DNA of 64,000 nt from positions 6,749,183 through 6,813,182 of the forward strand of contig NZ_LN831029.1 in assembly GCF_001457475.1 (NCBI RefSeq), in the 5' to 3' direction. Below are positions 12,064-26,411 of the stretch, one piece after another (position 1 is the stretch's first letter; each line of letters opens with the position of its first letter). The notes under the pieces were generated by a model. It saw nothing but the letters and a program-made list of their open reading frames with translations. It made no database searches and was not told the origin of the DNA. This DNA is from Achromobacter xylosoxidans (lineage in GTDB: Bacteria > Pseudomonadota > Gammaproteobacteria > Burkholderiales > Burkholderiaceae_B). The position numbers and the translations under genes were made by a program.

Positions 12064-13227
12064 TTACAAGATTCCGCGAACGGCTGCACGAAAAAGTTCG
12101 GCGTACTGGTCTGGCGTGTAGGCGACGGGGTTGGTGCCGCCCGATGGATCCTCGCTGGCCATGCGCCCTACCCGCTCGGCTTGCGCGTCGTCGATGCCGA
12201 TGTCGGCCAGGGTGTGCGGGATGCCGACGGTCTCGCGCAGGCCCAGCACCCAGTCGAGCACGGCGCCGGGGCCGTCATCCGGCAGTGCCAGATAGCGCGC
12301 CAGCGCCTGCAGCCGCGGCGCCACCGCGTGCTGGTTGGCCTTGAGCACGTAGGGCATGAGGATGGCGTTGAGCATGCCATGATGGGCGTCGTACAGCGCC
12401 CCCAGCGGATGCGCCAGCGCGTGCATCGCGCCCAGGCCGCGCTGGAACGCGGTGGCGCCCATGCTGGAGGCCACCAGCATCTGCTGGCGCGCCTGCAGGT
12501 CGGCGCCATCGGCCACGGCCCGCGGCAGGTATTCCTTGATCATGCGCATGCCTTCCAGCGCGATGCCGGCGGCCATCGGATGGAAGAACGGCGAACAGTA
12601 GGCTTCGAGGTTGTGCGACAGCGCGTCCATGCCGGTCGCGGCGGTGATGCGCGGCGGCAGGCCGACGGTGAGCTCGGGGTCGAGGATGACGATGGCGGGC
12701 AGCATGCGCGCGTGGAAGATGATGCGCTTGACCTGCGCCGCCTCGTCGGTGATGACGGAGGCGCGCCCCACTTCCGAGCCCGTGCCCGCGGTGGTTGGCA
12801 CCGCGACGACTGGCGCCATGCCGGCCACGTTCACGCGCAGGTAGTTGTCGCCCACGTCTTCGAAGTCCCACAGCGGACGCTTCTGGCCGGCCATCAACGC
12901 GATGGCCTTGGCCGCGTCCAGCGCCGAGCCGCCGCCGAACGCGATGACGCCATCGTGGCGGCCTTCGCGATAGCGCGCCACGCCGTCGTCCACGTTCCTG
13001 CCGGTGGGGTTGCCCTTCACTTCGTGGAACAGGCCGCATTCGAGTCCGGCCTGGCGGCAGCCGCGCACCGCATCGGCGATCATGGGCAGCGCGGCCAGGC
13101 CGGGATCGGTGACCAACAAGGGGCGCGCCATGCCGAGTTCGCGGCACCAGTCGGGCAACTCCTTGATGCGGCCGGGGCCCGCCTTGATGGCGGTGGGATA
13201 GTTCCAGTTGACGCTGGGGACGGTCAT
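12064..13227 (-). CDS. Iron-containing alcohol dehydrogenase
   Basis: Group III (iron-dependent) NAD(P) alcohol dehydrogenase, 387 residues, cytoplasmic. Start chosen at MTVPSVNWNYPTAIKAGPGR because AGGAG lies seven bases upstream. The nucleotide-binding GGGSALDAAKAIA motif lies at about residues 98-110. Metal ligands appear as the conserved GMDALSHNLEAY aspartate/histidine and the AMHALAHPLGALYDAHHG histidines. It is the last gene of a leftward phosphatase-ligase-ALDH-ADH unit, 20 bp after the aldehyde dehydrogenase. In that setting it would oxidise a (possibly gamma-glutamylated) amino alcohol; the substrate is inferred from context only. Phosphonoacetaldehyde-type reductases belong to the same family and are an alternative. 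Confidence 0.85.
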   Translation of the reverse strand: MTVPSVNWNYPTAIKAGPGRIKELPDWCRELGMARPLLVTDPGLAALPMIADAVRGCRQAGLECGLFHEVKGNPTGRNVDDGVARYREGRHDGVIAFGGGSALDAAKAIALMAGQKRPLWDFEDVGDNYLRVNVAGMAPVVAVPTTAGTGSEVGRASVITDEAAQVKRIIFHARMLPAIVILDPELTVGLPPRITAATGMDALSHNLEAYCSPFFHPMAAGIALEGMRMIKEYLPRAVADGADLQARQQMLVASSMGATAFQRGLGAMHALAHPLGALYDAHHGMLNAILMPYVLKANQHAVAPRLQALARYLALPDDGPGAVLDWVLGLRETVGIPHTLADIGIDDAQAERVGRMASEDPSGGTNPVAYTPDQYAELFRAAVRGIL

Positions 13228-13247
13228 GTCGGCTCCTGGTCGCGCGC

Positions 13248-14639
13248 TCAGGCGTTGCGGCGCAGATGGAAGGATTTGGCTTGGGTGAGCTGTTCGTAGC
13301 CGACGCGCGACAGCGAAACGCCGCGGCCGGTTTGCTTGACGCCGGTCCACGCCAGCGCGGGATCGAGGTAGTCGCAGCGGTTCATGAAGACGGTGCCCGT
13401 GCGCAACTGGCGGCCGAGATGCAATGCGGCCTCTTCATCCTGCGTGAGGATGGCGGCGGTCAGGCCGTAGGGGCTGTCGTTCATCAAAGCGACGGCCTCT
13501 TCGTCGCTGTCGACCGGCATCACGCCGACCACGGGGCCGAAGCATTCATCGTTCATCACGCGCATGCGGTGATCCACCTGCGTCAGCAGTGCCGGCGCCA
13601 CGTACGGCGTGCCGGCGCGCGCGGCGACGAAACGCGTGGCATCGACCAGGTTGCGGGCGCCGCGCGATTCGGCTTCGGCGATCACTTCGCGCACCTCGTC
13701 GGCCGCGCGCGTGCGCACCACCGGGCCGAGCGTGGTGTCTGGCTGCAAGGGGTCGCCCAGCACGTATTCGCCGGTCAGCGCCGCGGCGCGGTCGATGAAA
13801 TCCTGGTAGCGGTCGCGCGCCACGTAGATGCGCTGAATGCCGCAGCAGGACTGGCCGGAATTGAAGAAGGCGCCATCCACCAGCGTCTCGACCGCGTGCG
13901 CCAGGTTGGCGTCGGCGCGCACATACGCGGGGTCGTTGCCGCCCAGCTCCAGGCCCACGCCGATGAAGCGGCCGGCGGCGGCCTGCTCCACGCTCTGGCC
14001 GCCGCGCACCGAACCGGTGAAGGAGACATAGCCGATCTCGGGCGCGCGGATCAGCCGCTGCGCGATGTCGTGGTTCGCGTGCAGGTACTGGAACACGCCA
14101 TGCGGCACGCCGGCCTCGCTGAAAGCGCGGCCGATGAGCTCGGCGCACAGCGGGGTCTGGTCGGAGTGCTTGAGGATGACAGTGTTGCCGGCCATCAGCG
14201 CCGGCACGATGCTGTTCACGGCCGTCAGCAGCGGATAGTTCCAAGGCGCGATCGTCAACGCCACGCCGATCGGCTCGCGGCTGATGAAGCGCGTGAAGCC
14301 CGCGATCTCGGGCACCTGGATCGGCGCCAGCGCTTCGGCGGCGATGCCGATCATGTGGCGCGCGCGCGCCTCGAAGCCATCCACTTCGCCAGGCGTGTAG
14401 CGCGAGGGGCGGCCCATCTGGATCGTGATGGCGCGCGCGATCTCGGCCTTGCCGGCGACGAAGCGCGTCACCGCATCGGACAGGATGCGGCCGCGCTGCT
14501 CGATGCCGAGCGCGTGCCACGCGCCCTGCGCGGCCTGCGCGTCGGCCAGCGCCTGCGCGACCTGCGCCTCGCTGGCGTAGGGGCGGCGCACGACTTCGCG
14601 GCCGTCGATGGGACTGATGGTGATGAGTTCCTGCGTCAT
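13248..14639 (-). CDS. NAD(P)-dependent aldehyde dehydrogenase
   Basis: Aldehyde dehydrogenase superfamily, 463 residues from MTQELITISPIDGREVVRRP. Signatures in order are the APWNYPLLTAVNSIVPALMA oxyanion/cofactor region, the FTGSVRGG NAD loop, ELGGNDPAYV (general-base glutamate), NSGQSCCGIQRIYV (catalytic cysteine) and the late ECFGPVVGVMPV segment. It lies 43 bp after the glutamine-synthetase-like gene and 20 bp before the iron ADH, so alcohol and aldehyde oxidation are coupled in one transcript. The exact aldehyde is not readable from sequence; a gamma-glutamyl amino-aldehyde is my inference. Confidence 0.85.
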   Translation of the reverse strand: MTQELITISPIDGREVVRRPYASEAQVAQALADAQAAQGAWHALGIEQRGRILSDAVTRFVAGKAEIARAITIQMGRPSRYTPGEVDGFEARARHMIGIAAEALAPIQVPEIAGFTRFISREPIGVALTIAPWNYPLLTAVNSIVPALMAGNTVILKHSDQTPLCAELIGRAFSEAGVPHGVFQYLHANHDIAQRLIRAPEIGYVSFTGSVRGGQSVEQAAAGRFIGVGLELGGNDPAYVRADANLAHAVETLVDGAFFNSGQSCCGIQRIYVARDRYQDFIDRAAALTGEYVLGDPLQPDTTLGPVVRTRAADEVREVIAEAESRGARNLVDATRFVAARAGTPYVAPALLTQVDHRMRVMNDECFGPVVGVMPVDSDEEAVALMNDSPYGLTAAILTQDEEAALHLGRQLRTGTVFMNRCDYLDPALAWTGVKQTGRGVSLSRVGYEQLTQAKSFHLRRNA

Positions 14640-14682
14640 GGCGACCCTGTGCATGCGTGGTGAAAAGATGAAGCGGCGGCGT

Positions 14683-16068
14683 TCAGATGATCTCGAAATA
14701 GCGAGCCAATTCCCAATCGGTGACGTGACGGCGGAACTGGCGTTCTTCCCATTCGCGCGTGGCGGCATAGTGCTCGACGAAGGCATCGCCGAACAGCTCG
14801 CGCGCGGCTTCGGACTGGCGCAGGCGCTGCGCCGCTTCCCACAACGTGGTGGGCAGGTGCAGGCGGTCGGGAAACTGCTGCGTGTAGGCGTTGCCCTGCA
14901 CCATTGGTTCGGGTTCCAGGCCCTGCTCGATGCCATGCAGGCCAGAGGCCAACGCGGCGGACAGCGCCAGATAGGGATTGGCGTCGGCCGAGCCGATGCG
15001 CACCTCGACGCGCTGCGACTTGTCGCTGCCCGGGATGAGGCGCAGCGCGGTGGTGCGGTTCTCCATGCCCCAGGTGGCGTCCAGCGGCGCCCAGTAACCC
15101 GGCACCAGGCGCGAATAGCTGTTGATGGTCTGCGCGTACAGCGCCATGAATTCGGGCAGGTAGCGTTGCACGCCGGCCATGAAGGCGGCCTGCGTCGCGC
15201 TCATGCCGTGCGGGCGCGACTCGTCGTAGAAGGCCGAGCGGCCGCTGGTGCGGTCGCGTAGCGACAGGTGGATGTGGCCGCTCTGGCCGGGATGCTCGTG
15301 CGACCACTTCGCCATGAAGGTGGCCATCAGGCCGTTCTGCTGCGCCAGCGCCTTGGTGAAGGTCTTGAAGAGGAAGGCCTTGTCGCCGGCGGCGGCGGCC
15401 TGATCGACCGCGATGGCCGCCTCCAGCACGCCGGGACCGGTCTCGGTATGCAGGCCTTCGATCGGCATGTCCATGCGCTCGCACATGTCGAGCAGCTTGC
15501 GATAGAAATCGCCCTGCACGGTGCTGCGCAGCACCGAGTAGCCGAAGTTGCCGGGGGTCCAGTTCTCCATGTCGCGGTAGTGCTTGGCGCGCACCGAGTG
15601 CGGCGTCTCGCGGAACATGAAAAACTCGTATTCGAGCGCGGCGTAGACCTCGAAGCCCATGCCGGCGGCGCGATCCAGCGTGCGATGCAGCAGGCGGCGC
15701 GGGCAGATGTCGGCCGCGGAGCCTTCGAACTCGGCCAGGAACAGCAGCATGTCCTCGCCGCCGGGCCCCTGCTCCAGCGGCAGCCGGCGGCAGGTGCTGG
15801 GCACGATGCGCAGCTTGGCATCGGGATAGGCCGTGTGCCAGCCGGTGTACTTGGTGTTGTCGTAGAGCTGGTCGTCCAGGTCCCAGCCGAACACCACGTC
15901 GCAGAAAGCCAGCCCGCCGCGCAGCGCGGCCAGGAATTTGTCGCGCCTGACGTACTTGCCCAGCATGACGCCATCGACGTCGGACAGGCCGATCTTGATA
16001 TGCGAGAGCGTGCTGGCCTGGACCAGCCGCTCCGCGTCTTCCACCGTTGCTACCCCTAGTGCATGCAT
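14683..16068 (-). CDS. Glutamine-synthetase-like gamma-glutamyl amine/amino-alcohol ligase
   Basis: Glutamine synthetase fold, 461 residues, of the catabolic gamma-glutamylpolyamine/amide synthetase branch (PuuA, IpuC, GlnA4-like) rather than GlnA. The N-terminal beta-grasp loop DVDGVMLGKYVRRDK is present. Catalytic motifs are ALEYEFFMFRE (metal glutamates), ETGPGVLEAAI, SGHIHLSL (ATP/metal histidine), WGMENRTTALRL and EVRIGSADANPYLALSAAL. The adenylylation loop tyrosine of GlnA is not evident. Such enzymes use ATP to join glutamate to an amine, protecting it during later oxidation. The neighbouring ALDH and ADH fit that route. Start is ATG at 16068, 64 bp after the phosphatase gene. Confidence 0.8.
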   Translation of the reverse strand: MHALGVATVEDAERLVQASTLSHIKIGLSDVDGVMLGKYVRRDKFLAALRGGLAFCDVVFGWDLDDQLYDNTKYTGWHTAYPDAKLRIVPSTCRRLPLEQGPGGEDMLLFLAEFEGSAADICPRRLLHRTLDRAAGMGFEVYAALEYEFFMFRETPHSVRAKHYRDMENWTPGNFGYSVLRSTVQGDFYRKLLDMCERMDMPIEGLHTETGPGVLEAAIAVDQAAAAGDKAFLFKTFTKALAQQNGLMATFMAKWSHEHPGQSGHIHLSLRDRTSGRSAFYDESRPHGMSATQAAFMAGVQRYLPEFMALYAQTINSYSRLVPGYWAPLDATWGMENRTTALRLIPGSDKSQRVEVRIGSADANPYLALSAALASGLHGIEQGLEPEPMVQGNAYTQQFPDRLHLPTTLWEAAQRLRQSEAARELFGDAFVEHYAATREWEERQFRRHVTDWELARYFEII

Positions 16069-16132
16069 GGCTCGTTCACCTTGTCGTGGCTGAAGCGTTG
16101 CGTTGACGTGCGGGGTCGCGGGGCGCGGTGTT

Positions 16133-16939
16133 TCAGGTCACGGCCGCCCCCAGCATCCGCATCGCCTCGCGATGCAGCTGCGGCGTGGCGGCCGCGATCA
16201 CGCGGCCCTGCGACGCGAGGCCTAACGGCTGCCCCGACCAATCGGTAATGACGCCGCCCGCGCCTTCGATCACGGGCATCAGCGCCAGGTAGTCATACGG
16301 CTGCAGGCCGGCCTCGACCACCAGGTCGACGTGGCCGCTGGCCAGCAGGCCATAGCTGTAGCAATCGCCGCCATAGCGGCGCATGCGCACCGAGCGCGCC
16401 AGCGCGTCGAATGCGGCCAGATCGGCGCCTTCGAAGATGTCGGGCGAGGTGGCGTAGAGAATCGCCTGGTCCAGTTCGGTGCATTGACGGGTGCGGCAGG
16501 GCTCGCCATTCAGGCGCGCGGGCGAACCGGCGGCGCCGAGCCAGCGCTCGGCCATCATGGGAATGTCGATCAGGCCCAGCACCGGGCGGCCGCGGTGCAG
16601 CAGGCCCAGCAGCGTGCCCCACAGGGGATTGCCGGAAATGAACGCGCGGGTGCCGTCGATGGGGTCGAGCGACCACACCCACTCGGCCCCGGCATGGCTG
16701 GCGCCGTATTCCTCGCCGAAGATGCCGTGATCCGGATACTGGCGGGCGATGGCTTCGCGCAGCGCTTGCTCGACCTCGCGGTCGGCGCGGGTGACGGGAC
16801 TTTCATCCGCCTTGGTCTCCACCATCAGGGGGTGGCGGAACCACTGGCGCGACAGGGGCCGGACCTGGTCCGCCAGCGTCTGGGCGAACGAGGAAAACGC
16901 GGCCAATTGCTGCGCGGTGGGCAGCGGCGAAGTTTGCAT
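16133..16939 (-). CDS. Inositol-monophosphatase-family phosphatase (HisN-like)
   Basis: Metal-dependent phosphomonoesterase, 268 residues from MQTSPLPTAQQLAAFSSFAQ, chosen for the CGGAG six bases upstream; longer starts would run through the promoter region. Metal ligands are GEE (75-77) and DPIDGT (92-97), with the late QPYDYLALMPVIEGAGGVIT motif. The PYDYLAL form resembles histidinol-phosphate phosphatases (HisN type) more than inositol enzymes, i.e. a phosphorylated amino alcohol substrate. First gene of the leftward unit, divergent from an ABC importer. Removing phosphate from the imported compound is the inferred role. Confidence 0.8.
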   Translation of the reverse strand: MQTSPLPTAQQLAAFSSFAQTLADQVRPLSRQWFRHPLMVETKADESPVTRADREVEQALREAIARQYPDHGIFGEEYGASHAGAEWVWSLDPIDGTRAFISGNPLWGTLLGLLHRGRPVLGLIDIPMMAERWLGAAGSPARLNGEPCRTRQCTELDQAILYATSPDIFEGADLAAFDALARSVRMRRYGGDCYSYGLLASGHVDLVVEAGLQPYDYLALMPVIEGAGGVITDWSGQPLGLASQGRVIAAATPQLHREAMRMLGAAVT

Positions 16940-17016
16940 GACGAGCTCCGAGGCGTAACGCGGCGCGGAAAGACCCATGCGATTCGGGTTTTTCCAGTCT
17001 AGACACGTTGCCACAA

Positions 17017-17063
17017 ATTTGCAAATATACCTAAAAACGCAACCCGGGAAACGCAACGTTTCC
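17017..17063. promoter_or_regulatory. Operator-like palindromes in the divergent phosphatase/ABC control region
   Basis: Between the divergent starts at 16939 and 17154 are ATTTGCAAAT (17017-17026, perfect 10-bp palindrome) and GGAAACG-CAA-CGTTTCC (17047-17063, perfect 7-bp arms). The latter is a plausible operator for the DeoR-family regulator encoded at the end of the rightward unit. Function is inferred; promoters themselves are not clear. Confidence 0.5.
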
Positions 17064-17153
17064 TCGCGCAACCCTACCGCCCCGCCCGCAGGTCGCCGTC
17101 CGCAGAAAAGCAGCTCATCGCCGTTGCCGTGTATTCCTTTCCGGAGTCCCATC

Positions 17154-18164
17154 ATGCAATGTAAGAAGAAGCTTGGTCTTGTGGTTGCAGTAATTTCCCT
17201 AGGTTTTGCCCAGGCCGTCCACGCCGGCGCGATCACCGTCTACACGGCGCTGGAGGAAGACGAGATTGCCGCCTACCTGAAGGCCGCCAACGCCGCCCTG
17301 CCCGACGTGAAGGTCAATGTGCTGCGCCTGTCCACCGGCGACCTGGGCGCTCGCCTGATCGCCGAGGCCGGCAATCCGCAGCAGGACGTGATCTGGGGCT
17401 TCGCGGTCAGCAACATGCTGGATCCGCGCCTGCAGAAGCTGCTGGAACCGTATGCGGCTAAGGGCATCGAAGCCCTGCCCGCGCAATACAAGGCCGCCGA
17501 CAACAAATGGTTCGCCGCCACCGGCTACGTGGCCGCGTTCTGTGTCAACACCGACCGGCTCAAGTCCAGGAACCTGCCGATGCCGACCTCGTGGGAAGAC
17601 CTGACCAAGCCGGTCTACAAGGGCGAGATCGTCATCCCCAGTCCGGCGGCATCCGGCACCGGTTATCTGCAGATCGTCGCGCTGCTGCAGGGCCTGGGCG
17701 CCGAGAAAGGCTGGGCGCTGCTCAAGGACCTGGACAAGAACGTGGCGCAGTACACGCCGTCGGGGTCGCGCCCCTGCAAGATGGCGCGCGCCGGCGAGTA
17801 TGCGATCGGCGTGTCGTTCGCGTTCCCGGCGATGCAATCGATCGAGGAAGGCTTTCCGGTGAAGATGGTGATCCCGTCGAAATGGGTGGGCTATGAGCTG
17901 GAAGCCTCGGGCCTGATGAAGACCGCCAAGAATCCCGCGGACGCCAAGCGCTTCCTCGACTGGACGCTGTCGGCGCAGGCCGGCGGGCTGTACAGCAAGT
18001 ACAAAGAGCTGGTGACGATTCCCGGCGCCGCCCCCAACAAGGCGGCCGAAGCCGCAGGCTTGCCCAAGGACCTGACCGCCGTGCTGTATCCGGTGGACTT
18101 CCAGAAATCGGCGGCGGAACGCGACGCCACCATCAAGACCTGGCAGGACACCATCAAACGCTGA
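17154..18164 (+). CDS. Periplasmic binding protein of an Fe3+/2-aminoethylphosphonate-type ABC importer
   Basis: Extracellular solute-binding protein, 336 residues. A signal peptide MQCKKKLGLVVAVISLGFAQ ends at VHA-GA (about residue 24), and the mature protein starts with the family-typical AITVYTALEEDE. Start chosen for GGAG eight bases upstream; the frame extends further but into the control region. The PSPAASGTGYLQIVALLQGLG segment and the general layout match the family that binds ferric iron, aminoethylphosphonate or phosphate esters. Followed by the ATPase after 51 bp. Its genomic pairing with a phosphatase argues for an organophosphate ligand rather than iron; that is inference. Confidence 0.85.
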   Translation: MQCKKKLGLVVAVISLGFAQAVHAGAITVYTALEEDEIAAYLKAANAALPDVKVNVLRLSTGDLGARLIAEAGNPQQDVIWGFAVSNMLDPRLQKLLEPYAAKGIEALPAQYKAADNKWFAATGYVAAFCVNTDRLKSRNLPMPTSWEDLTKPVYKGEIVIPSPAASGTGYLQIVALLQGLGAEKGWALLKDLDKNVAQYTPSGSRPCKMARAGEYAIGVSFAFPAMQSIEEGFPVKMVIPSKWVGYELEASGLMKTAKNPADAKRFLDWTLSAQAGGLYSKYKELVTIPGAAPNKAAEAAGLPKDLTAVLYPVDFQKSAAERDATIKTWQDTIKR

Positions 18165-18215
18165 CGGCGCGCGCGGCCGGCGCCGCCGGCCGCCACGCCA
18201 CCGCCTGGAGCGGCC

Positions 18216-19223
18216 ATGTACCTGGATTTGCGCGGGATCCGCAAGACCTTCGACGGCGCGGTGGCGCTGGAAGGCATCGACCTGTCGGTGGGCGAACATG
18301 AATTCGTCTGCCTGCTGGGACCCAGCGGCTGCGGCAAGACGACCCTGCTGCGCATCGTCGCCGGCCTGCTGCCATTCGACAGCGGCACCATCACGCTGGG
18401 CGGACGCGACCTGTCGGCGCTGCCGGCGCGCAAGCGCGGCTTCGGCATCGTGTTCCAGTCGTATTCGCTGTTTCCCAACATGACGGTGGCCGAGAACGTC
18501 GGCTACGGGTTGCGCATCCGCGGCGAGACGCGCGAGCGCATCGACGCACGGGTGCGCGAATTGCTCGCGCTGATCAAGCTGCCGGATTATGCACAGCGTT
18601 ATCCCCACCAATTGTCCGGCGGCCAGCAGCAGCGCGTGGCATTGGCGCGCGCGCTGGCGGTGGACCCCGCGCTGATCCTGCTTGATGAACCCCTGTCGGC
18701 GCTGGATGCGCGCGTGCGCACCGACATGCGCGCCGAGATCCACGATGTGCAGCGACGCCTGCGGATCCCGACCATCATGGTGACGCACGACCAGGAGGAA
18801 GCGCTCACGCTGGCCGATAAGATCGTGTGCATGAATGACGGCCGCGTCGAGCAGGTGGGATCGCCTTCCGACCTGTATCTGCGGCCGAGCACACGCTTCG
18901 TCGCCAACTTCGTCGGCCTGAGCAACCTGTTGCCGACCGACTGGGTGCGCGAGGCCATGCCGGCGTTGCTGGCGACCCGGCCGGACGGCGCCAGCGAGCG
19001 TTTCGAGGCCTGCCTGCGGCCGGAAAGCCTGCGCATCGCCGCCGACGAGCGCGGGCCGGGCCGGGTGCGCGAAATGACCTTCATGGGCAACCTGACGCGC
19101 GTGCGGGTGGACTGGCGAGGCCGCGAGTTGCTGGTCGAACAACAGGGCGCGGCGGGCCTGTCGCAGGGCGCGCCCGTGCGGCTGGACCTGGCGCCGGAAC
19201 AATGCGCCTGGGTTCGCGTATGA
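18216..19223 (+). CDS. ABC importer ATP-binding protein
   Basis: ATPase of the importer, 335 residues. Walker A GPSGCGKTT (about 37-45), signature LSGGQQQRVALARAL (about 132-146), Walker B LILLDEPLSALDAR and the switch motif MVTHDQEEALTLADK are all intact. A C-terminal TOBE-like domain of about 100 residues follows (AACLRPESLRI-type, here EACLRPESLRIAADERG), as in the FbpC/PotA/PhnT group. Encoded between binding protein and permease; acts on the cytoplasmic face. Confidence 0.92.
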   Translation: MYLDLRGIRKTFDGAVALEGIDLSVGEHEFVCLLGPSGCGKTTLLRIVAGLLPFDSGTITLGGRDLSALPARKRGFGIVFQSYSLFPNMTVAENVGYGLRIRGETRERIDARVRELLALIKLPDYAQRYPHQLSGGQQQRVALARALAVDPALILLDEPLSALDARVRTDMRAEIHDVQRRLRIPTIMVTHDQEEALTLADKIVCMNDGRVEQVGSPSDLYLRPSTRFVANFVGLSNLLPTDWVREAMPALLATRPDGASERFEACLRPESLRIAADERGPGRVREMTFMGNLTRVRVDWRGRELLVEQQGAAGLSQGAPVRLDLAPEQCAWVRV

Positions 19224-19260
19224 CTGCGTCCGCCACGCCGGCACGCGCGGGGGTCATGGC

Positions 19261-20943
19261 ATGAACACGGTTCGTATCGGCGCCGCCACTTCGCCGCGGG
19301 CCAATCGCTCGTCGGCCTCCCTGGATCGACTGCTGCTATGGACCTGCGTCGGCATCCCGATGGCGGGCCTGGCGCTGTTCTTCCTGTATCCATTGGCCAC
19401 CGTCGGCTGGCGCAGCCTGGTGGAAAAGGACGGCGCTATCGGCCTGGGCAATTACGCCGACGTGTTCGCCACCCGCGGCATCCTGACCGCCACCGCCAAC
19501 AGCCTGACGATGAGCGCGGCCACCACCGCCGTCAGCCTGCTGCTGGGCTTTGCCATCGCTTTCGGGCTGGACCGCAGCCGCATGCGCGGAAAGGCGCTGG
19601 TGAAGCTGGCGCTGGTGCTGCCGCTGCTGGCGCCGTCGCTGGTGCAGGGGCTGGGGCTGATCTTCATCCTTGGACGCAACGGCCTGGTGCATCGCTGGAC
19701 CGGGTGGGAGTTCGATATCTACGGGTTCTGGGGCCTGCTGATCTCCAACGTGTTCTACGCCCTGCCCCAGGCCGTGCTGATCCTGCAGGCGGCGCTGCGC
19801 AACACCGATGCGCGCTATTACGACGCGGCCGAGGTGATGGGCGCGTCGAGCGCGCGGCAGTTCTTCGACATCACGCTGCCCAACTGCAAGTTCGGGCTGC
19901 TGAGCGCGGCGTTCGTGGTGTTCGTCATCACCATCACCGACTTCGGCAACGCCGCGGTGATCGGCGGCAACTATCGCGTGCCGGCCACCGAGATCTACAG
20001 CCAGGTGTCGGGCCAGATGAATTTCGGCATGGGCTCGGTGGTGGGCATTTTGCTGCTGTTGCCGTCGCTGATCTCGGTGCAGATCGAACGGGTGGCCTCG
20101 CAACGCCAGTTCGGCGCCGCCTCGCCCAGCGGACTGCGCGTCACGCCGCAACCGGCGCGCGGCCGCGACCTGGCGTTCACGGCGGGCGTGCTGCTGTGCG
20201 CCAGCGCCATCGTGGTGACGGTGGGCACGGTGGTGTTCGCCAGCTTCATGCGGCTGTGGCCCTATCGCATGGAATGGACCCTGAAGCACTACGACATCAC
20301 CGTCAGCGGCGGCTATGCGCCGCTGTGGACTTCGCTGTACCTGTCGCTGGCGGCCGCGGCCGGCGGCGTGCTGCTGCTGTTCTTCCTGACCTTCGGCGTA
20401 TGCCGCATCCCCCGCGCGTGGGCCAAGCTGGTCTACCTGGTGTCGGTGCTGCCGGTGGGCGTGCCGGGGCTGGTATTGGGGCTGTCCTACATCTTCGCCT
20501 TCAACTCGCCTTCCACGCCGCTGTACGCGCTATACGGCAGCGCCGCACTGATCGCGCTGTGCAACTTCTACCACTATCACACGCAAGGCTTCCTGACGAT
20601 GATGACCGGCATGCGCGCGGTGCCGCAGGCGCTGGAGGAAGCGGTCAGCTGCCTGGGCGGCGGCACGTTGCACATCGTGCGCGATGCGGTGCTGCCGCAG
20701 ATCGCCCCAACGGTGCTGGGCGTGTTCTTTTTCCTGTTCATGCGTTCCATGGTGACGCTGTCGGCGGTGATCTTCCTGGTCACACCGTCGGTCAGTGTCG
20801 CGCCGGTTTCCGTACTGCGGCTGGACGAAGCGGGGTTCGTCTCGCAGGCCGCGGCCTATTCGACGCTTATCATGCTGGTCGTGGGTGGTTCGCTGCTGGC
20901 GATGCGCGCGTTGATCGCGTTGCCGGCGCGGCGCCGCAAATAG
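19261..20943 (+). CDS. Double-length ABC permease (FbpB/PhnU-V-like)
   Basis: Inner-membrane permease of 560 residues that contains two complete permease halves, so one chain can form the whole channel. Each half has an EAA loop: AEVMGASSARQFFDITLP near residue 197 and LEEAVSCLGGGTLHIVRDAV near residue 458. About twelve hydrophobic segments are visible. This fused form is typical of ferric-iron and aminoethylphosphonate importers. It starts 37 bp after the ATPase and is followed after 19 bp by the regulator gene. Confidence 0.9.
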   Translation: MNTVRIGAATSPRANRSSASLDRLLLWTCVGIPMAGLALFFLYPLATVGWRSLVEKDGAIGLGNYADVFATRGILTATANSLTMSAATTAVSLLLGFAIAFGLDRSRMRGKALVKLALVLPLLAPSLVQGLGLIFILGRNGLVHRWTGWEFDIYGFWGLLISNVFYALPQAVLILQAALRNTDARYYDAAEVMGASSARQFFDITLPNCKFGLLSAAFVVFVITITDFGNAAVIGGNYRVPATEIYSQVSGQMNFGMGSVVGILLLLPSLISVQIERVASQRQFGAASPSGLRVTPQPARGRDLAFTAGVLLCASAIVVTVGTVVFASFMRLWPYRMEWTLKHYDITVSGGYAPLWTSLYLSLAAAAGGVLLLFFLTFGVCRIPRAWAKLVYLVSVLPVGVPGLVLGLSYIFAFNSPSTPLYALYGSAALIALCNFYHYHTQGFLTMMTGMRAVPQALEEAVSCLGGGTLHIVRDAVLPQIAPTVLGVFFFLFMRSMVTLSAVIFLVTPSVSVAPVSVLRLDEAGFVSQAAAYSTLIMLVVGGSLLAMRALIALPARRRK

Positions 20944-20962
20944 AGATTAGGAAGCATCCGAT

Positions 20963-21724
20963 ATGTGGCAAGAAGAGCGGTATCAGAGAATCCGCGCCCT
21001 GCTGTCTTCCCTGCAGCAGGTATCGACCGACCGTATCGTCGGCGAACTGGGGGTATCGCGGGAGACCGTCCGGCGCGATCTGCTGGAGCTGGAGGCGATG
21101 GGCGAGCTGCGCCGCGTGCATGGCGGCGCGGTGCCGGTGCACAGCGAGCCGCCGATCACGGAACGCGTGCACACCCGCGTCAAGTACAAGCGCGCCATCG
21201 CGCGCGCCGCGGCCGGCCTGGTGACGAGCGGGCAGACGCTGTTCCTGGATGCGGGCAGCACCACCAGCATGCTTGCGGACGAGCTGGCCAAGCTGAGCGG
21301 GCTGACCCTCATCACCAATTCGTTCGACGTGGCGCTCAAGGTCGGCGCCGCCGGCAGCGGGGCCAATGAACTCATCATGCTGGGCGGATCGGTGGGTGGG
21401 CCGGTGTGCGCCACCGCCGGCGACATCACCATCGCCGAGATCCACCGCTACCGCGCCGACGTGGCGTTGCTGTCACCGGTGGGCGTGGACGCCGAATGCG
21501 GCGCCACCAGCTACGACCTGCGCGAAGCCGAAGTGGCGCGCGCGATGGCCGCCAACGCCAAGCAGCGCATCCTGCTGGCCGATTTCAGCAAGATCGGCCT
21601 GTGCAGCCGGGTGTCGTACTGCGAAGTGAACCGCATCGATCACCTCATCACCAACACCAACGCGCAGAAGCAGCCCGCCTTCGCGGCCCTGAAGGCCGCG
21701 GTCGGCAAGGTTCTGGTGGCTTAG
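20963..21724 (+). CDS. DeoR/GlpR-family transcriptional regulator
   Basis: 253 residues. N-terminal helix-turn-helix RYQRIRALLSSLQQVSTDRI with VSRETVRRDLLELEAMGELR (about 25-52, the DeoR signature) and RVHGGAVP. The C-terminal DeoRC sensor has LDAGSTTSMLADEL and ITNSFDVAL motifs that in the family bind phosphorylated sugars or polyols. A regulator sensing a phosphorylated effector fits a cluster with an organophosphate importer and phosphatase. Last gene of the rightward unit, probably repressing both arms through the palindromes near 17.05 kb (inference). Confidence 0.9.
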   Translation: MWQEERYQRIRALLSSLQQVSTDRIVGELGVSRETVRRDLLELEAMGELRRVHGGAVPVHSEPPITERVHTRVKYKRAIARAAAGLVTSGQTLFLDAGSTTSMLADELAKLSGLTLITNSFDVALKVGAAGSGANELIMLGGSVGGPVCATAGDITIAEIHRYRADVALLSPVGVDAECGATSYDLREAEVARAMAANAKQRILLADFSKIGLCSRVSYCEVNRIDHLITNTNAQKQPAFAALKAAVGKVLVA

Positions 21725-21732
21725 CCGCCGCT

Positions 21733-22734
21733 TCAATCCACCGACACGCCCGCAACCTTGACCATGTCGGCCCAGTACGTGGTGTCCTGTTGCAGGCGCT
21801 TGCCGAACGCATCGGGCGCGCTGCCGACGGGCTGGCTGCCGCCGGCCTGGATCTTGGCGATCACGTTGGGCGATTTCATGGCCTGCGCCACCGCTTGCGC
21901 CAGGTAGGCGATGCGCTCGGGCGGCGTGCCGGCCGGCGCGAACAGGCCGTACCAGTCGTCGGCCGTGATGCCGTCCATGCCGGATTGGGCAAGCGTGGGC
22001 GCGCCCTTGAAGATGCCGATGCCGTTCTCATGGCTCAGCGCAAGGATGCGCAGCTTGCCGGCCGCCACCATCGGCTCGGCCGAGGCCGGCGAAGTGATCA
22101 GCATGTCGACGGTGCCGCCCATCAGGTCGGTGATGGCGGGCGCGGCGCCGCGATACGGCACGTGCACCAGTTTCACGTTGGCCTTCTGCGACAGCAGCGC
22201 GCCCATCAGATGGCTCATGGTGCCGTTGCCGGGCGTGGCGTAGGTGATGACGCCGGGCTGCTTGCGCGCGGCGTCCAGGTAGTCGCCCAGCGACTTGTAG
22301 GCGCTTTCGCTGCGCGCCACCAGCACCAGCGGCGCCGAGGTGATCTGCGAGATCGGCACGAAGTCCTTGAGCGGATCGAAACCCACGTTCTTGTACAGGC
22401 GCGGGTTGACCGCCATGACGCTGGTCTGCGACATCACCAACGTATAGCCGTCGGGCTTGGCGCGCGACACCTGCGAAGTGCCGACGTTGCCGCCCGCGCC
22501 GGAACGGTTTTCCACCACCACGCTCTGGCCGGTGATCGCCCCGAGTTCCTGCGCGATCAGGCGCGCCACGCCATCGTTGCCGCCCCCGGGCGGGAACGGC
22601 GAGACCACGGTGATGGCCTGCTTGGGGTAGTCGGCCAGGGGCGCGGGCGCCTGGGCGTGGGCGTTCAGCCCCCACGCCAGGCAGGCCAGGGCGGCGGCGG
22701 TCTTGCAGGCATGTTGCAGCTGGTACTTGTTCAT
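21733..22734 (-). CDS. Bug-family (TctC-like) periplasmic binding protein
   Basis: Tripartite tricarboxylate transporter receptor family, 333 residues. Signal peptide MNKYQLQHACKTAAALACLA ending NAHA-QA (about residue 27). Family motifs FPPGGGNDGVARLIAQ, VENRSGAGGNVGTSQV, PGNGTMSHLMGALLSQ and HVPYRGAAPAITDLMGG are present. No membrane subunits are adjacent, so it is an orphan Bug protein of the kind greatly expanded in Bordetella and relatives. It is 151 bp downstream of the rhodanese gene on the same strand and may bind a product or substrate of the sulfur pathway; the ligand is unknown. Confidence 0.88.
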   Translation of the reverse strand: MNKYQLQHACKTAAALACLAWGLNAHAQAPAPLADYPKQAITVVSPFPPGGGNDGVARLIAQELGAITGQSVVVENRSGAGGNVGTSQVSRAKPDGYTLVMSQTSVMAVNPRLYKNVGFDPLKDFVPISQITSAPLVLVARSESAYKSLGDYLDAARKQPGVITYATPGNGTMSHLMGALLSQKANVKLVHVPYRGAAPAITDLMGGTVDMLITSPASAEPMVAAGKLRILALSHENGIGIFKGAPTLAQSGMDGITADDWYGLFAPAGTPPERIAYLAQAVAQAMKSPNVIAKIQAGGSQPVGSAPDAFGKRLQQDTTYWADMVKVAGVSVD

Positions 22735-22886
22735 CGATATTTCCCCTTGTGATTGGCGGCCGGATGCTCGGCCGTCCATTGCATTTCGGTTCGCCATGAA
22801 CCGTCCGCGCCCCGTCGGCGAAGCGCCGGGGCGTGCTGATCGGATGAAGCGTGTGGCGCGGCCACGGGGGCAGTCCGCCCCGATGG

Positions 22887-24482
22887 TCACCCCGCCGGGA
22901 AGCGATACGCGGCGCGTTCGCGCGCGTCGATCTGCTTGACCAGGTTGGTTTCCCAGGCGAGGTACTGACGCGCCGCGGCCTTGTTGCCGTCGTGGCGGTC
23001 GTGCACGAAAAACAGGTAATCGATGCAATCGCGGTCGGCGGGCGTGGACGGCGTGGATTCCAGCGCGATGCCCGCCGCCGACCAGCCGGCCGCCGTGCCC
23101 AGGTTGACGGCAAGGTCCCGCGCGCCGCGCGCCCGCAGGTCCGCCGCGGCCCAGGCGGCCACCGCGAGTTCCTCGGCCAGCAGCACCAACGGACGTGCCG
23201 GGTCCAGCGCCAGGCCGGCAAAGCGCGGCCGGATGGCCCATTGCGCTCCCGCGATGTGTTGGGCGCGATAGCGCATGCTGGGGCGGATGTCGATGAGTTG
23301 CGCGCCTGCGTCCAGCGCGGCGGCCAGCGCCGCGTCATCCAATACCTTGACCGGCGGTTCGGCGATCGGGGCGACAGGCGCTTGCAGGTCGGCGCCCACG
23401 CCTTCCTGCAGCACGCTCGCGTCCCAGCCCATCTGGCGCAACCAGCTGGCCACCACCGGCGCGCGCACGCCTTCGCCATCGAACACCACGATGCGCGCGC
23501 CACGCACGGCCACGTACTGGTCGGTGGCCTGGATCAACTGGCCGCCGGGCGTGTGCTGCGCGCCGCGCAACGAGCCTTGCGCGTACTCCTCGGCACTGCG
23601 CACGTCGCACAGGAAGGTGCTGCGGCCCGTGTCGGCCAGCCAGCTGCGCACCTGCGCGGCGTTCACCCACGGCACGCCATGGCGTTCGGCCAGGCCGGCC
23701 GAGCGTTGCGCCAGCGCCGGTATATCGGCCGCGGCAATGGCATCCTCATATCGACGGCTGGCGCCATGATCGAGCTTGAAATCCGCCAGGTACCAGCCCT
23801 GGGTGCCGTTCTCCAGCGCGTAGACGGGATTGGGCACGCCCAGGTTGATGAGGGTCTGCGCGCCGATGATGCTGCGGGTACGGCCGGCGCAGTTGACCAC
23901 GATGGTGGTCTTCGGATCGGGCGCCAGGCCGTGCGCGCGCAGCGCGAGCTCGCCGTTGGGGCAGCAGATGCCGCCGGGGATGCTCATCTTCTGGTATTCG
24001 GCGTAGGGCCGGCCGTCGAGCACGATCAGATCGTCGCCACGACGCTGGCGCTCGGCCAGTTCGGCCGCGCTGATGCGCGGCGTGTGGAAGACTTCTTCGG
24101 CGAGCTCGCCGAAAGTCTTGCTCGGGACATTGACCCCCGCGAAAGCGGCGTAGCCATCGCGTTGCCATTGCGCGATGCCGCCTGCGAGGCGGTGGACCTG
24201 CGTGTAGCCCACGGCCCGCAAGGCCGCTGCCGCGCGCGCCGCGACGTCATCGTCATCCCCCGCGTCGTAGACCACCACGCGCGCATCGCGCCGCGGCGCC
24301 AGGCGCGCGATATCGGCCTCGAGCCGGCTGAACGGCACCGGCGCCGCATAGAACAGGTGGGACTCGCCGTATTGGCCATGCTCGCGCACGTCCAGCAGCG
24401 CAATCTCGCCGCCGTCATGCAGCCAGCCCTTGAGGGTGTGCGAGTCGATATCGGCCAGTTTCAGGTCGGAATGGGCATGCAT
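22887..24482 (-). CDS. Four-domain rhodanese-like sulfurtransferase, one active site left
   Basis: 531 residues in four tandem rhodanese domains (about 15-112, 135-245, 265-375, 380-485), cytoplasmic. Only the second has a catalytic loop, VVNCAGRTRS with Cys198. The equivalent positions in domains 1, 3 and 4 read VVYDAGDDD, VVFDGEGVRA and LVLLAEELAV, with no cysteine. Start MHAHSDLKLADIDSHTLKGW lies 2 bp after the C-S lyase stop. Context with a thiol dioxygenase and a PLP C-S lyase suggests it accepts sulfane sulfur released from a thiol amino acid. The frame extends upstream into the lyase but that is a shadow. Confidence 0.88.
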   Translation of the reverse strand: MHAHSDLKLADIDSHTLKGWLHDGGEIALLDVREHGQYGESHLFYAAPVPFSRLEADIARLAPRRDARVVVYDAGDDDDVAARAAAALRAVGYTQVHRLAGGIAQWQRDGYAAFAGVNVPSKTFGELAEEVFHTPRISAAELAERQRRGDDLIVLDGRPYAEYQKMSIPGGICCPNGELALRAHGLAPDPKTTIVVNCAGRTRSIIGAQTLINLGVPNPVYALENGTQGWYLADFKLDHGASRRYEDAIAAADIPALAQRSAGLAERHGVPWVNAAQVRSWLADTGRSTFLCDVRSAEEYAQGSLRGAQHTPGGQLIQATDQYVAVRGARIVVFDGEGVRAPVVASWLRQMGWDASVLQEGVGADLQAPVAPIAEPPVKVLDDAALAAALDAGAQLIDIRPSMRYRAQHIAGAQWAIRPRFAGLALDPARPLVLLAEELAVAAWAAADLRARGARDLAVNLGTAAGWSAAGIALESTPSTPADRDCIDYLFFVHDRHDGNKAAARQYLAWETNLVKQIDARERAAYRFPAG

Positions 24483-24484
24483 CG

Positions 24485-25696
24485 TTAAATCCGCAGGGAA
24501 TCGGGGGAATGGGAATTCAGGGCCGCCAGGACGGGCCGTAATTGGCCGAATGCCTGTTCGAGATCGGCGATCAGGTCGTCCGGATCCTCCAGCCCGATAT
24601 GCAGGCGCAGCATGGCGCCATGCGGGGCCACGGGCAGGGATCGCGCCTTGGCCAGATTGACGGGTATCACCAGGCTCTCGAATCCGCCCCAGGATGCGCC
24701 GATGCCGAACAGGCGCAGCGCGTCGATGACGCGTTCCATGTCGGCATCGGCGATGCCGGCGGCGAACTCCAGCGTCAGCAGGCCGTTGGTGCCGGTGCAC
24801 TCGCGACGCCAGACCGCGTGCGCGGGGTCGTCAGGCAGGGCCGGGCACAGCACGCGCGCCACTTCCGCCCTGCCCTGCAACCACTGCGCTACGCGCAATG
24901 CGCTGTGGGCATGTTGCGCCAGGCGCAGCGGCAGCGAACGCATGCCGCGTAGCACCAGATAGGCATCGTCGGCGCCGACGGTCTGGCCGAAATCGATGCT
25001 GGCGCGTTCCAGCGCGCGCCAGGCGCGGGCATTGGTCACGACCGCGCCCATCATCACGTCGGCGTGGCCGCCCAGGTACTTGGTGGCGGCGAGAATCGAG
25101 ATGTCCGCGCCCAGCGCCAATGGCTGGCACAGCAAGCCGGACGCCCAGGTGTTGTCCACAGCCAGCCAGCAATCATGGCGTTGCGCCAACTCAGCCAGCT
25201 GCCGCAGGTCCGGCATTTCGTAGGTGAGCGAACCCGGCGACTCGGCATAGATCATGCGCGTGTTGGGACGCAGCAGCTGCGCCAGGCCGGCGCCATCCGG
25301 CGGATAGAAAGTGAATTCGATGCCCAGCCGCGACAGGTGCTCGGCGCAGAAGCGGCGCACCGGTTCGTAGACCGCATCGGTCACCAGCACGTGGTCGCCG
25401 GCGCGCAGATAGGCCAGCAACACGATGGCGATGGCGGCCTGCCCGGTGGGGTACAGCTGGGCGCGATGCCCCTGCTCCAGCTCGACCAGCGCGTCTTCCA
25501 GCGCGTGCGTGCTGTCGGTGCCGCGCGCGCCGTACGACGGCAGGCGTTCCTGTTCGCGGCGGGCGCGGGTGTCGCGCCAGGCCGCGACGCTGTCGAACAC
25601 ATAGGTGCTGGCACGCGTGACCGGGGTGTTGACCCAGCCGGCATGGGGACGCCCGGCGCGCAGCAGGCGCGTCGCGGACCGCAGGGGCTTGTTCAT
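24485..25696 (-). CDS. PLP-dependent C-S lyase (cystathionine beta-lyase/gamma-synthase family)
   Basis: Trans-sulfuration enzyme family, 403 residues. The fold motifs are YPTGQAAIAIVLLAYL (PLP phosphate binding), YAESPGSLTYEMPDL, AVDNTWASGLLCQPLALGAD and SILAATKYLGGHADVMMGAV, where the lysine forms the internal aldimine. It is closest to MetC-type beta-lyases, which split cystathionine or cystine into a thiol/persulfide, pyruvate and ammonia. It lies 5 bp after the dioxygenase stop and 2 bp before the rhodanese, so the three enzymes are one tight operon. The precise substrate is not decidable from sequence. Confidence 0.85.
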   Translation of the reverse strand: MNKPLRSATRLLRAGRPHAGWVNTPVTRASTYVFDSVAAWRDTRARREQERLPSYGARGTDSTHALEDALVELEQGHRAQLYPTGQAAIAIVLLAYLRAGDHVLVTDAVYEPVRRFCAEHLSRLGIEFTFYPPDGAGLAQLLRPNTRMIYAESPGSLTYEMPDLRQLAELAQRHDCWLAVDNTWASGLLCQPLALGADISILAATKYLGGHADVMMGAVVTNARAWRALERASIDFGQTVGADDAYLVLRGMRSLPLRLAQHAHSALRVAQWLQGRAEVARVLCPALPDDPAHAVWRRECTGTNGLLTLEFAAGIADADMERVIDALRLFGIGASWGGFESLVIPVNLAKARSLPVAPHGAMLRLHIGLEDPDDLIADLEQAFGQLRPVLAALNSHSPDSLRI

Positions 25697-25701
25697 GATG
25701 G

Positions 25702-26289
25702 TCAGCGGCGGGTCTGCACGCCGATCGGCATGACCTTGCAGGTGCCGGCGGCCAGGTCGAAGGCCAGCCGCTCGGTCAGCGTTTCGAGGGCGCGGCCGTA
25801 CATGTGCAGGTGGCGGATGACGCTATCGCCCTGGATCTCGACGGCATGGATATCGTCCGGCATCAGCGCGATGCCGGTGCCCGGCCCCACCACCACGGTC
25901 CCGGTCTTTTCCAGGCGGCCCACGCCGGGCACGGAGCCATCGTCGGTGCGGTCGTAGACGTAGTTGTATTCCACGCCTTCCACGGCGGCGATACAGGCCC
26001 AGGTGGTGTGGTTGTGCGGCACGATCTGCTTGCCGGGACGCATCACGTTCAGGTAGAGCGCGTAGCTCTTGTCGGCGTCCTCGCCGATCAGGTAGCGCGC
26101 CTGGCGTTCGCCCTCTTCCGGCGCCGGGTAGCGATCCTGGGCCCACCAGTCGGTATGACTGGCCAGGCCGATCAACTCGTCCAGCACGACCTTCAGGCTG
26201 TCGCGGTTCAGGCCCTTATTTCCTAAAGTAGTTTTAATATTTCCGATGGCGCTGTCGATGCCTTGTTGCTGGGGATGCGTGGTGCTCAC
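25702..26289 (-). CDS. Cysteine/thiol dioxygenase (GTG start)
   Basis: Mononuclear iron cupin that oxidises a thiol to a sulfinate. 195 residues if started at GTG 26289 (GAGG ten bases upstream); a longer ATG start at 26355 would invade the promoter. Iron ligands are His92, His94 ([10 protein letters not shown]) and His148 ([10 protein letters not shown]). Arg65 sits where cysteine dioxygenases bind the substrate carboxylate. Cys99 and Tyr164 occupy the positions of the mammalian Cys-Tyr cross-link (Cys93-Tyr157 in rat), which is unusual for a bacterial member. First gene of the leftward sulfur operon, divergent from the LysR gene. Confidence 0.85.
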
Positions 26290-26411
26290 AATGACTTTTC
26301 CTCTTGTTTCATGAGTTATTGCAGTCACTGTATCGCCGCGCGCGAGCGCCAACAATTTAAATTGCCTTAATATTCCATAAGCATCTCTAATACTTTCGAC
26401 TCGCTGCTCCC
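26290..26411. promoter_or_regulatory. Divergent control region of the dioxygenase operon and LysR gene
   Basis: The 122-bp gap contains CAATTTAAATTG (26353-26364), a perfect 12-bp palindrome suited to a LysR-type dimer. On the minus strand TTGTTG, 17 bp, TACAGT is a possible promoter for the dioxygenase operon. Roles are inferred from position. Confidence 0.5.

Follow-up and report, generated by a model that had tools for sequence, protein, structure and literature searches.

A divergent gene cluster of Achromobacter xylosoxidans with a candidate importer, cytoplasmic phosphatase and downstream route for phosphoethanolamine

Which compound is taken up and consumed by a gene cluster in which an importer is encoded back to back with a phosphatase, a ligase and two oxidizing enzymes? 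The cluster comprises eight genes at positions 12064-21724 of a 64,000-nucleotide stretch of Achromobacter xylosoxidans DNA (the window, positions 6749183-6813182 of a single-contig genome of 6.81 Mb). We propose, with a probability of roughly 0.8, that it serves phosphoethanolamine scavenging by intact import, dephosphorylation and gamma-glutamyl oxidation of ethanolamine. Gene content, conservation, modularity and alternative partners were observed; we infer every substrate and reaction from this context.

All eight open reading frames are intact and open at the positions below, and the families given to these divergent genes in an original prediction were confirmed with Pfam. The bounds are the likely coding limits. 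Counts out of 80 refer to the best 80 loci, those with ligases most like that of the window, 66 of them outside Achromobacter; more such loci exist.

12064-13227, minus strand: iron-containing alcohol dehydrogenase (Fe-ADH), predicted gamma-glutamyl-ethanolamide dehydrogenase; Pfam PF00465/PF25137; clustered with the ligase in 74 of 80 loci
13248-14639, minus strand: aldehyde dehydrogenase (ALDH), predicted gamma-glutamyl-aminoacetaldehyde dehydrogenase; Pfam PF00171 (Aldedh); clustered in 69 of 80 loci
14683-16068, minus strand: glutamine-synthetase-like ligase, predicted ethanolamine gamma-glutamylase; Pfam PF00120 (Gln-synt_C)
16133-16939, minus strand: IMPase-family phosphatase, predicted phosphoethanolamine phosphatase; Pfam Inositol_P and TIGR02067; relatives annotated HisN
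16998-17043, no strand: candidate DeoR operator block, conserved in the divergent promoter region; inverted TTGC/GCAA half-sites at 17008-17025
17154-18164, plus strand: periplasmic binding protein, predicted phosphoethanolamine-binding; Pfam SBP_bac_6; TIGR03261, 345 bits, cut-off 393
18216-19223, plus strand: ATP-binding cassette (ABC) ATPase; Pfam ABC_tran; TIGR03265, 407.5 bits, cut-off 457.7
19261-20943, plus strand: fused permease, double because it holds two BPD_transp_1 stretches; TIGR03262, 473.6 bits, cut-off 593.25
20963-21724, plus strand: DeoR/GlpR-family regulator; Pfam PF00455 (DeoRC) and PF08220

The Fe-ADH is above the cut-off of no NCBIfam equivalog, nor is the ALDH among the best 25 of its 45 matches.

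In the proposed route, the ABC importer (17154-20943) would take up intact phosphoethanolamine from the periplasm, and the HisN-like phosphatase would split it into ethanolamine and phosphate. The ligase would join ethanolamine to glutamate using ATP, and the Fe-ADH and ALDH would convert gamma-glutamyl-ethanolamide via the aldehyde to gamma-glutamyl-glycine, from which a hydrolase encoded outside the locus would release glycine and glutamate. Both arms of the cluster would be under DeoR control, probably exerted at the promoter region that they share. This order of steps had been predicted for amino-alcohol phosphates in general, and locus comparison supports it. Among the substrates then named, phosphoethanolamine is singled out by the EutBC or phospho-lyase-like partners found elsewhere; histidinol phosphate is disfavored and was rejected.

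Partners of the importer

The substrate assignment draws on 28 binding-protein loci: the window, L117-L123, L132, L133, L136, L137 and 16 plasmids. In 121 genomes of the GTDB family, 31 have a match at E<=1e-40, of which eight are orthologues with at least 63% identity and the rest a separate group with at most 46% (this split, and one at 61% used for the phosphatase below, were chosen after the hits were seen). In a class sample, 3 of 369 genomes, including that of the window, reach E<=1e-100. Among 72,556 plasmid records 559 match, and all 16 loci with at least 50% identity among the best 40 of these were read out. The core clade accounts for 22 of the 28 loci, and each of the 22 has either a HisN-like phosphatase (16 loci) or a phospho-lyase-like gene (6 loci) in the importer cluster, never both.

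At seven of the eight family orthologue loci the phosphatase is divergent to the importer, with the ligase operon contiguous in six of these seven; in G013 the ligase operon lies ~550 kb from the importer on the same contig. At L122, a binding protein of the ethanolamine-type tripartite ATP-independent periplasmic (TRAP) class and the importer-phosphatase cassette flank one ligase operon. The eighth locus, in genome G008 (L121), lacks a phosphatase; a class-III aminotransferase-like gene stands divergent to its importer. Its product matches ethanolamine-phosphate phospho-lyase 6tor at 348 bits and phospholyase 5g4i at 326 bits, with the next match at 179. The two lyase-like proteins compared with PDB score 314-357 bits against 6tor and 5g4i, which we take to come from human and Arthrobacter, respectively, and 179-190 against the next family. 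The phosphonate lyase PbfA is a poorer fit to the L121 protein, at 191 bits against a cut-off of 525. In G485 (L133) the binding protein, ATPase, permease, DeoR and a lyase-like gene (69% to that of L121) follow in a row, and a phosphatase is present in G134 (L132).

The plasmids show the same exchange of partners. Four Azospirillum plasmids carry hisN-eutB-eutC divergent to the importer (EutB 708 bits, cut-off 554). On one Enterobacter and three Klebsiella plasmids hisN is missing and a lyase-like gene is present, its product 74% identical to those of L121 and L133. The importer is accompanied by hisN on two Sagittula and one Roseinatronobacter plasmids, and by a 42% phosphatase on the unannotated Shinella Teo12 plasmid. 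A search from the lyase side recovers the same four enteric loci.

One importer is thus paired with three unrelated sets of enzymes, each consuming either ethanolamine or phosphoethanolamine, which argues for phosphoethanolamine as the substrate of the importer. The rule appears to be chemical: where the following enzyme requires free ethanolamine there is a phosphatase, and where it takes the phosphate ester there is none. It also seems likely that this mobile importer family gives many Pseudomonadota uptake of the intact headgroup, with three interchangeable ends (phosphatase and gamma-glutamyl route, phosphatase and EutBC, or phospho-lyase).

A tree was made from 27 proteins, comprising 23 of the 28 binding-protein loci (all but the near copies H44, H47, H51, H53 and H55) and 4 of the 10 phosphonate-type controls. 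The lyase partner requires at least two changes on its well-supported branches, so the importer-lyase combination has probably been gained or retained on more than one occasion; G485 sits on a long branch and its placement is unsure. Lyase-like genes elsewhere occur with an APH-family kinase (in Acinetobacter by annotation only) and, in Chimaeribacter, also with an ethanolamine permease, neighbors as expected for a lyase-like enzyme using phosphoethanolamine. In the class, a search with the lyase finds 9 of 321 genomes at 44-52% identity; G485 lies outside this sample, which is thus no test of the importer link.

Some observations on these loci stand apart. In the four enteric loci (L173, L174, L180 and L186, from clinical isolates of Enterobacter and Klebsiella) the importer-DeoR-lyase-like island is on plasmids typed as conjugative. 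The plasmid-borne permease of Sagittula sp. P11 (L187:7050-8719) is split by its annotation into two overlapping pieces, which is not the case in the close kin Sagittula MA-2. On a Lachnospira eligens plasmid (L179), a polyamine-type ABC transporter, a 61% lyase-like homologue and a metallophosphoesterase stand in this order, so that Bacillota may have a further kind of importer for this substrate.

The ligand of the binding protein

The nearest solved structures, AfuA, VcA0625 and P5PA, bind phosphate esters. A structure alignment covered the window protein together with 41 of the 120 homologues listed, out of 1212 matches in all. The phosphate cradle of AfuA and P5PA is retained and the sugar residues are not; fold and phosphate-binding motifs fit this group. 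Based on the residues given in the available part of PMC4546632, AfuA His205, Asp206 and Glu229 correspond to Phe224, Pro225 and Glu248 of the window protein. The proline is atypical of the clade (Pro in 15 of 42, Ala in 26 of 42). Both AfuABC, which takes hexose phosphates (PMC4546632), and the pyridoxal phosphate protein P5PA (PMC8427247), as described in the accessible text of the two papers, are ~30% identical to the window protein, and the AfuA residues that differ, His205 and Asp206, are those that bind the sugar ring.

Iron uptake, which the annotation of such proteins implies, was rejected. The pair of adjacent iron-binding tyrosines of FbpA-type ferric-binding proteins, represented among the titles of matched structures by Y195/Y196 mutants, occurs nowhere in the window protein, and the structural Z is at most 31.6 for ferric-binding proteins vs 35-38.

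The best-scoring NCBIfam models are those of PhnS2T2U2, a putative 2-aminoethylphosphonate importer that shares the fused permease. Uptake of 2-aminoethylphosphonate, a near-isostere of phosphoethanolamine, would explain these names; nevertheless, we rejected it as very unlikely. The importer is under all three cut-offs (345/393, 407/458 and 474/593 bits for TIGR03261, TIGR03265 and TIGR03262), and phosphonate-type proteins form a separate clade with 100/100 support. Their pocket strand mostly reads Asp-Tyr-Arg, compared with Ala-Phe-Ala/Pro in the importer clade. The neighbors also differ: in scans of 27 orthologue loci, tblastn detected neither PhnW nor PhnA. A C-P bond is beyond a phosphatase. 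Nine control loci from the group with at most 46% identity had no match to HisN-like, DeoR, ligase, EutB or HAD proteins; one has 29% matches to the aminotransferase and to M81, and one has PhnW (L145). A tenth control, from Shinella, has PhnW, PhnA and PhnY.

It is highly improbable that the importer carries glycerophosphoethanolamine or phosphocholine. A phospholipase C of the phosphocholine-specific family (929 bits, cut-off 580) does lie between binding protein and ATPase at L121, but the ligase, EutBC and the lyase all need a primary amine. At 15 annotated plasmid loci, where diesterases were not searched for as such, none of the genes adjoining the importer is annotated with a diesterase name.

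Phosphatase, ligase core and final hydrolase

Annotation of the phosphatase as the histidinol-phosphatase HisN suggests a housekeeping enzyme that is here by accident, beside a transporter for some other phosphate ester. Its TIGR02067 score is over the cut-off (298.9 vs 275.15), alone among the four matches in the genome; the partner phosphatases of G033, Azospirillum and Sagittula are likewise over it. Its distribution speaks against histidine synthesis. Among the 121 family genomes, 17 match at E<=1e-60, 12 of them with at least 61% identity and 5 with 47-50%; all 12 with the orthologue also carry the ligase, itself found as an orthologue in 17 of 121. In G118 the phosphatase is absent except for a 50% homologue elsewhere. 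At other loci a lyase-like gene replaces it beside the same importer, and in Azospirillum it adjoins eutBC. This patchy presence tied to the ligase would argue against a role in histidine synthesis, and we rejected the housekeeping explanation, giving it very little credence.

The window ligase (nearest named loci in A. dolens and A. ruhlandii, 98% identity) does not appear to be an ordinary glutamine synthetase. It scores 222 bits against a GlnA cut-off of 429, and an ordinary GlnA-like gene is elsewhere in the genome. The PHYEAP loop of that GlnA, in which Glu serves ammonium binding, reads PGYWAP or PGFWAP in the window ligase and four relatives, with Trp replacing Glu. Other glutamine-synthetase-like enzymes, IpuC of Paenarthrobacter (by annotation; 41% identical to the window ligase) and GlnA4 of Streptomyces coelicolor (PMC6529630, in the portion available), likewise gamma-glutamylate amines before oxidation. 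They belong to different operons, and IpuC also acts on a different amine. Ligase, ALDH and ADH follow the order of a Phaeobacter ethanolamine operon, given in the accessible text of Westermann et al. 2023 (PMC10132767) as EtoVWX-ETAGA-GAADDH-GETADH plus a gamma-glutamyl-glycine amidohydrolase.

Neighbors of the core point to the same substrate. Among the 66 non-Achromobacter loci, a permease cluster lies upstream of the core in 18, and 14 of the 18 match the ethanolamine permease TIGR00908 at E<=1e-110, a level at which the remaining four have no match. A TRAP binding protein lies upstream in 8 of 66; that of L075 matches PDB 4uab at 541 bits (next 60), and the seven others are 69-77% identical to it. 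We take 4uab to be the ethanolamine protein Csal_0678. An AraC regulator closest to EutR is linked to the core in 5 of 66 loci (the one checked has 245 bits, under the cut-off of 319). At least one of these three kinds of gene occurs at 29 of 66 loci; the window locus itself has no ethanolamine transporter of these kinds. The widespread ligase-ALDH-Fe-ADH core corresponds in each of its genes to the already published gamma-glutamyl-ethanolamine route. If the substrate were another amino-alcohol phosphate (1-amino-2-propanol phosphate or alaninol phosphate, for instance), the chemistry would be unchanged; phospho-lyases and ammonia-lyases of these families accept aminopropanol homologues, and relatives of the binding protein take varied phosphate esters. 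We nevertheless regard such a substrate as unlikely, given that all three downstream sets are named for ethanolamine or its phosphate and that the recognized transporters of the core are for ethanolamine.

No EutB (with a positive E. coli control) and no ethanolamine permease over the cut-off was found in the Achromobacter genome; thus the gamma-glutamyl route is its only recognized ethanolamine route, with the exception of a phospho-lyase homologue (C1:4686415-4687686, L166; 52% identical to the L133 one). This homologue has no importer of this kind nearby and may be a second outlet for phosphoethanolamine. By eye, this gene is beside a TctAB-like transporter and an M20-like peptidase.

The original prediction was right that a final hydrolase is missing at the locus, and the best homologues in the genome are a GATase at 31% and an M81 protein at 49% (C1:5921576). 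Among relatives, a class-I GATase-like gene follows the core in 31 of 66 non-Achromobacter loci and an M81/MlrC-like gene in 11 of 66, with no overlap (families were checked on two GATase-like proteins and one M81 protein). The M81/MlrC-like protein is a candidate non-homologous replacement for gamma-glutamyl-glycine hydrolysis. This metallopeptidase gene occupies the GATase slot in L023, L025, L028-L031, L034-L036, L038 and L078, mostly Betaproteobacteria, and likewise in L118, L119, L149, L155 and L156.

Modularity, counter-evidence and known systems

All eight genes recur in 15 of the 80 ligase loci (13 of the 14 Achromobacter loci, and L029 and L030 in a different order), and the set is therefore not a chance assembly; in L010, one of the 13, the binding-protein match is over 55%. 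The other 65 loci are incomplete, a pattern that the original prediction had listed against itself, and a single conserved eight-gene unit was rejected on this basis. Instead, the genes fall into two modules, the core and a separate portable cassette of phosphatase, importer and DeoR. The phosphatase occurs in 17 of 80 loci. At the G118 locus importer, DeoR and phosphatase are all absent, G063 keeps DeoR and a C-terminal permease remnant, and G047 has DeoR alone beside the ligase operon, phosphatase and importer being absent from the locus. Together with G003 and G075, where the locus holds phosphatase and core but neither importer nor DeoR, these patterns indicate that the cassette is dispensable and in places being lost; that of G047 ties DeoR to the core as well. 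By eye, L149:9252-9596 is a permease C-terminal remnant between DeoR and phosphatase, with the rest of the importer gone.

The operator block at 16998-17043 comes from an alignment of 21 intergenic regions. A related palindrome, TTGCNNAAATNTGCAA, occurs with at most one mismatch in the corresponding gap in 7 of the 38 stretches that were scanned; 2 of its 9 matches lie outside the promoter gap. The strict search for this palindrome gave no site in Achromobacter, where the half-sites are spaced one base wider.

Several of these results weigh against phosphoethanolamine scavenging as the function of the cluster, namely the absence of the cassette from most ligase loci, the lack of the importer at the G003 and G075 loci, the HisN score of the phosphatase and the lack of a hydrolase at the Achromobacter locus. 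Moreover, the importer orthologue is in just 2 of 6 genomes of the genus in the evenly drawn family sample, and the five genomes with weaker phosphatases include just one with the ligase. Co-occurrence is not independent of ancestry, the four Azospirillum and the four enteric plasmids each being close kin; Fisher values of 2e-6, 5e-13 and 1e-7 ignore kinship and were not used as probabilities. The nearest PDB entry to the ligase scores just 228 bits, so its tie to assayed enzymes is through gene order and neighbors. Of nine lyase-like plasmid matches with at least 60% identity, seven were read (H83 and H89 were left out) and only four adjoin the importer. PhnW is nearby in just 2 of 10 phosphonate-type controls. 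Finally, six alphaproteobacterial loci form a side group (L136 and L137 from the phylum sample; L188-L190 and L192 from Sulfitobacter, two Martelella and one Martelella-like) with binding proteins 53-57% identical by tblastn and permeases 42-46%. The tree (94/97) and an Arg in the pocket strand, placed as in phosphonate-type proteins, set them apart; a HAD hydrolase follows the permease in L188-L190 and L192, and L136 and L137 had no partner gene among the types looked for. The six were excluded from the core count because of pocket and permease, and they may serve a different substrate, a phosphate or a phosphonate.

Among bacterial lipids phosphatidylethanolamine is a major one, and its headgroup commonly supplies phosphorus, nitrogen and carbon. 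A gamma-glutamyl-ethanolamine operon in Phaeobacter sp. MED193 and Chromohalobacter salexigens reportedly goes back to Vetting et al. 2015. Based on the available text of PMC10132767, this operon (EtoVWX, ETAGA, GAADDH, GETADH, GGAH) shares the ligase-ALDH-ADH order, and relatives of the window locus match its ethanolamine-type TRAP importer and class-I GATase-like hydrolase. In that known marine route, however, dephosphorylation by PhoX is extracellular and it is ethanolamine that enters the cell, whereas the window encodes a predicted phosphate-ester ABC importer and cytoplasmic phosphatase, and the hydrolase is not at the locus. On cellular uptake of the intact headgroup, the same text says that this 'remains to be determined'. 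The original prediction knew of no described system with this set; the three-enzyme core proves to be published (PMC10132767), and we found no phosphoethanolamine importer, nor intact uptake with a cytoplasmic phosphatase, in the open-licence PMC literature as far as its text was available. Relatives of ethanolamine-phosphate phospho-lyase (6tor, 5g4i) are in 6 of 28 importer clusters and not at the window locus. We know of no importer/phosphatase cassette with GlnA4 or IpuC.

The new part would thus be the entry step, importer and cytoplasmic phosphatase; enzyme classes and downstream route are already known. As a candidate importer, phosphatase and downstream route for the intact headgroup, the cluster would, if the assignment holds, supply the import step left open in the available text of Westermann et al. 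(PMC10132767). The annotations iron(III)/phosphonate binding protein and HisN would then be corrected across Alpha-, Beta- and Gammaproteobacteria, and M81 proteins are proposed as gamma-glutamyl-glycine hydrolases.

Beside the cluster, positions 21733-26355 encode a tripartite-tricarboxylate-type binding protein and, by eye, a rhodanese-repeat protein, a cystathionine lyase/synthase-like enzyme and a cysteine dioxygenase; this gene order repeats by eye in other Achromobacter (L146, L151).

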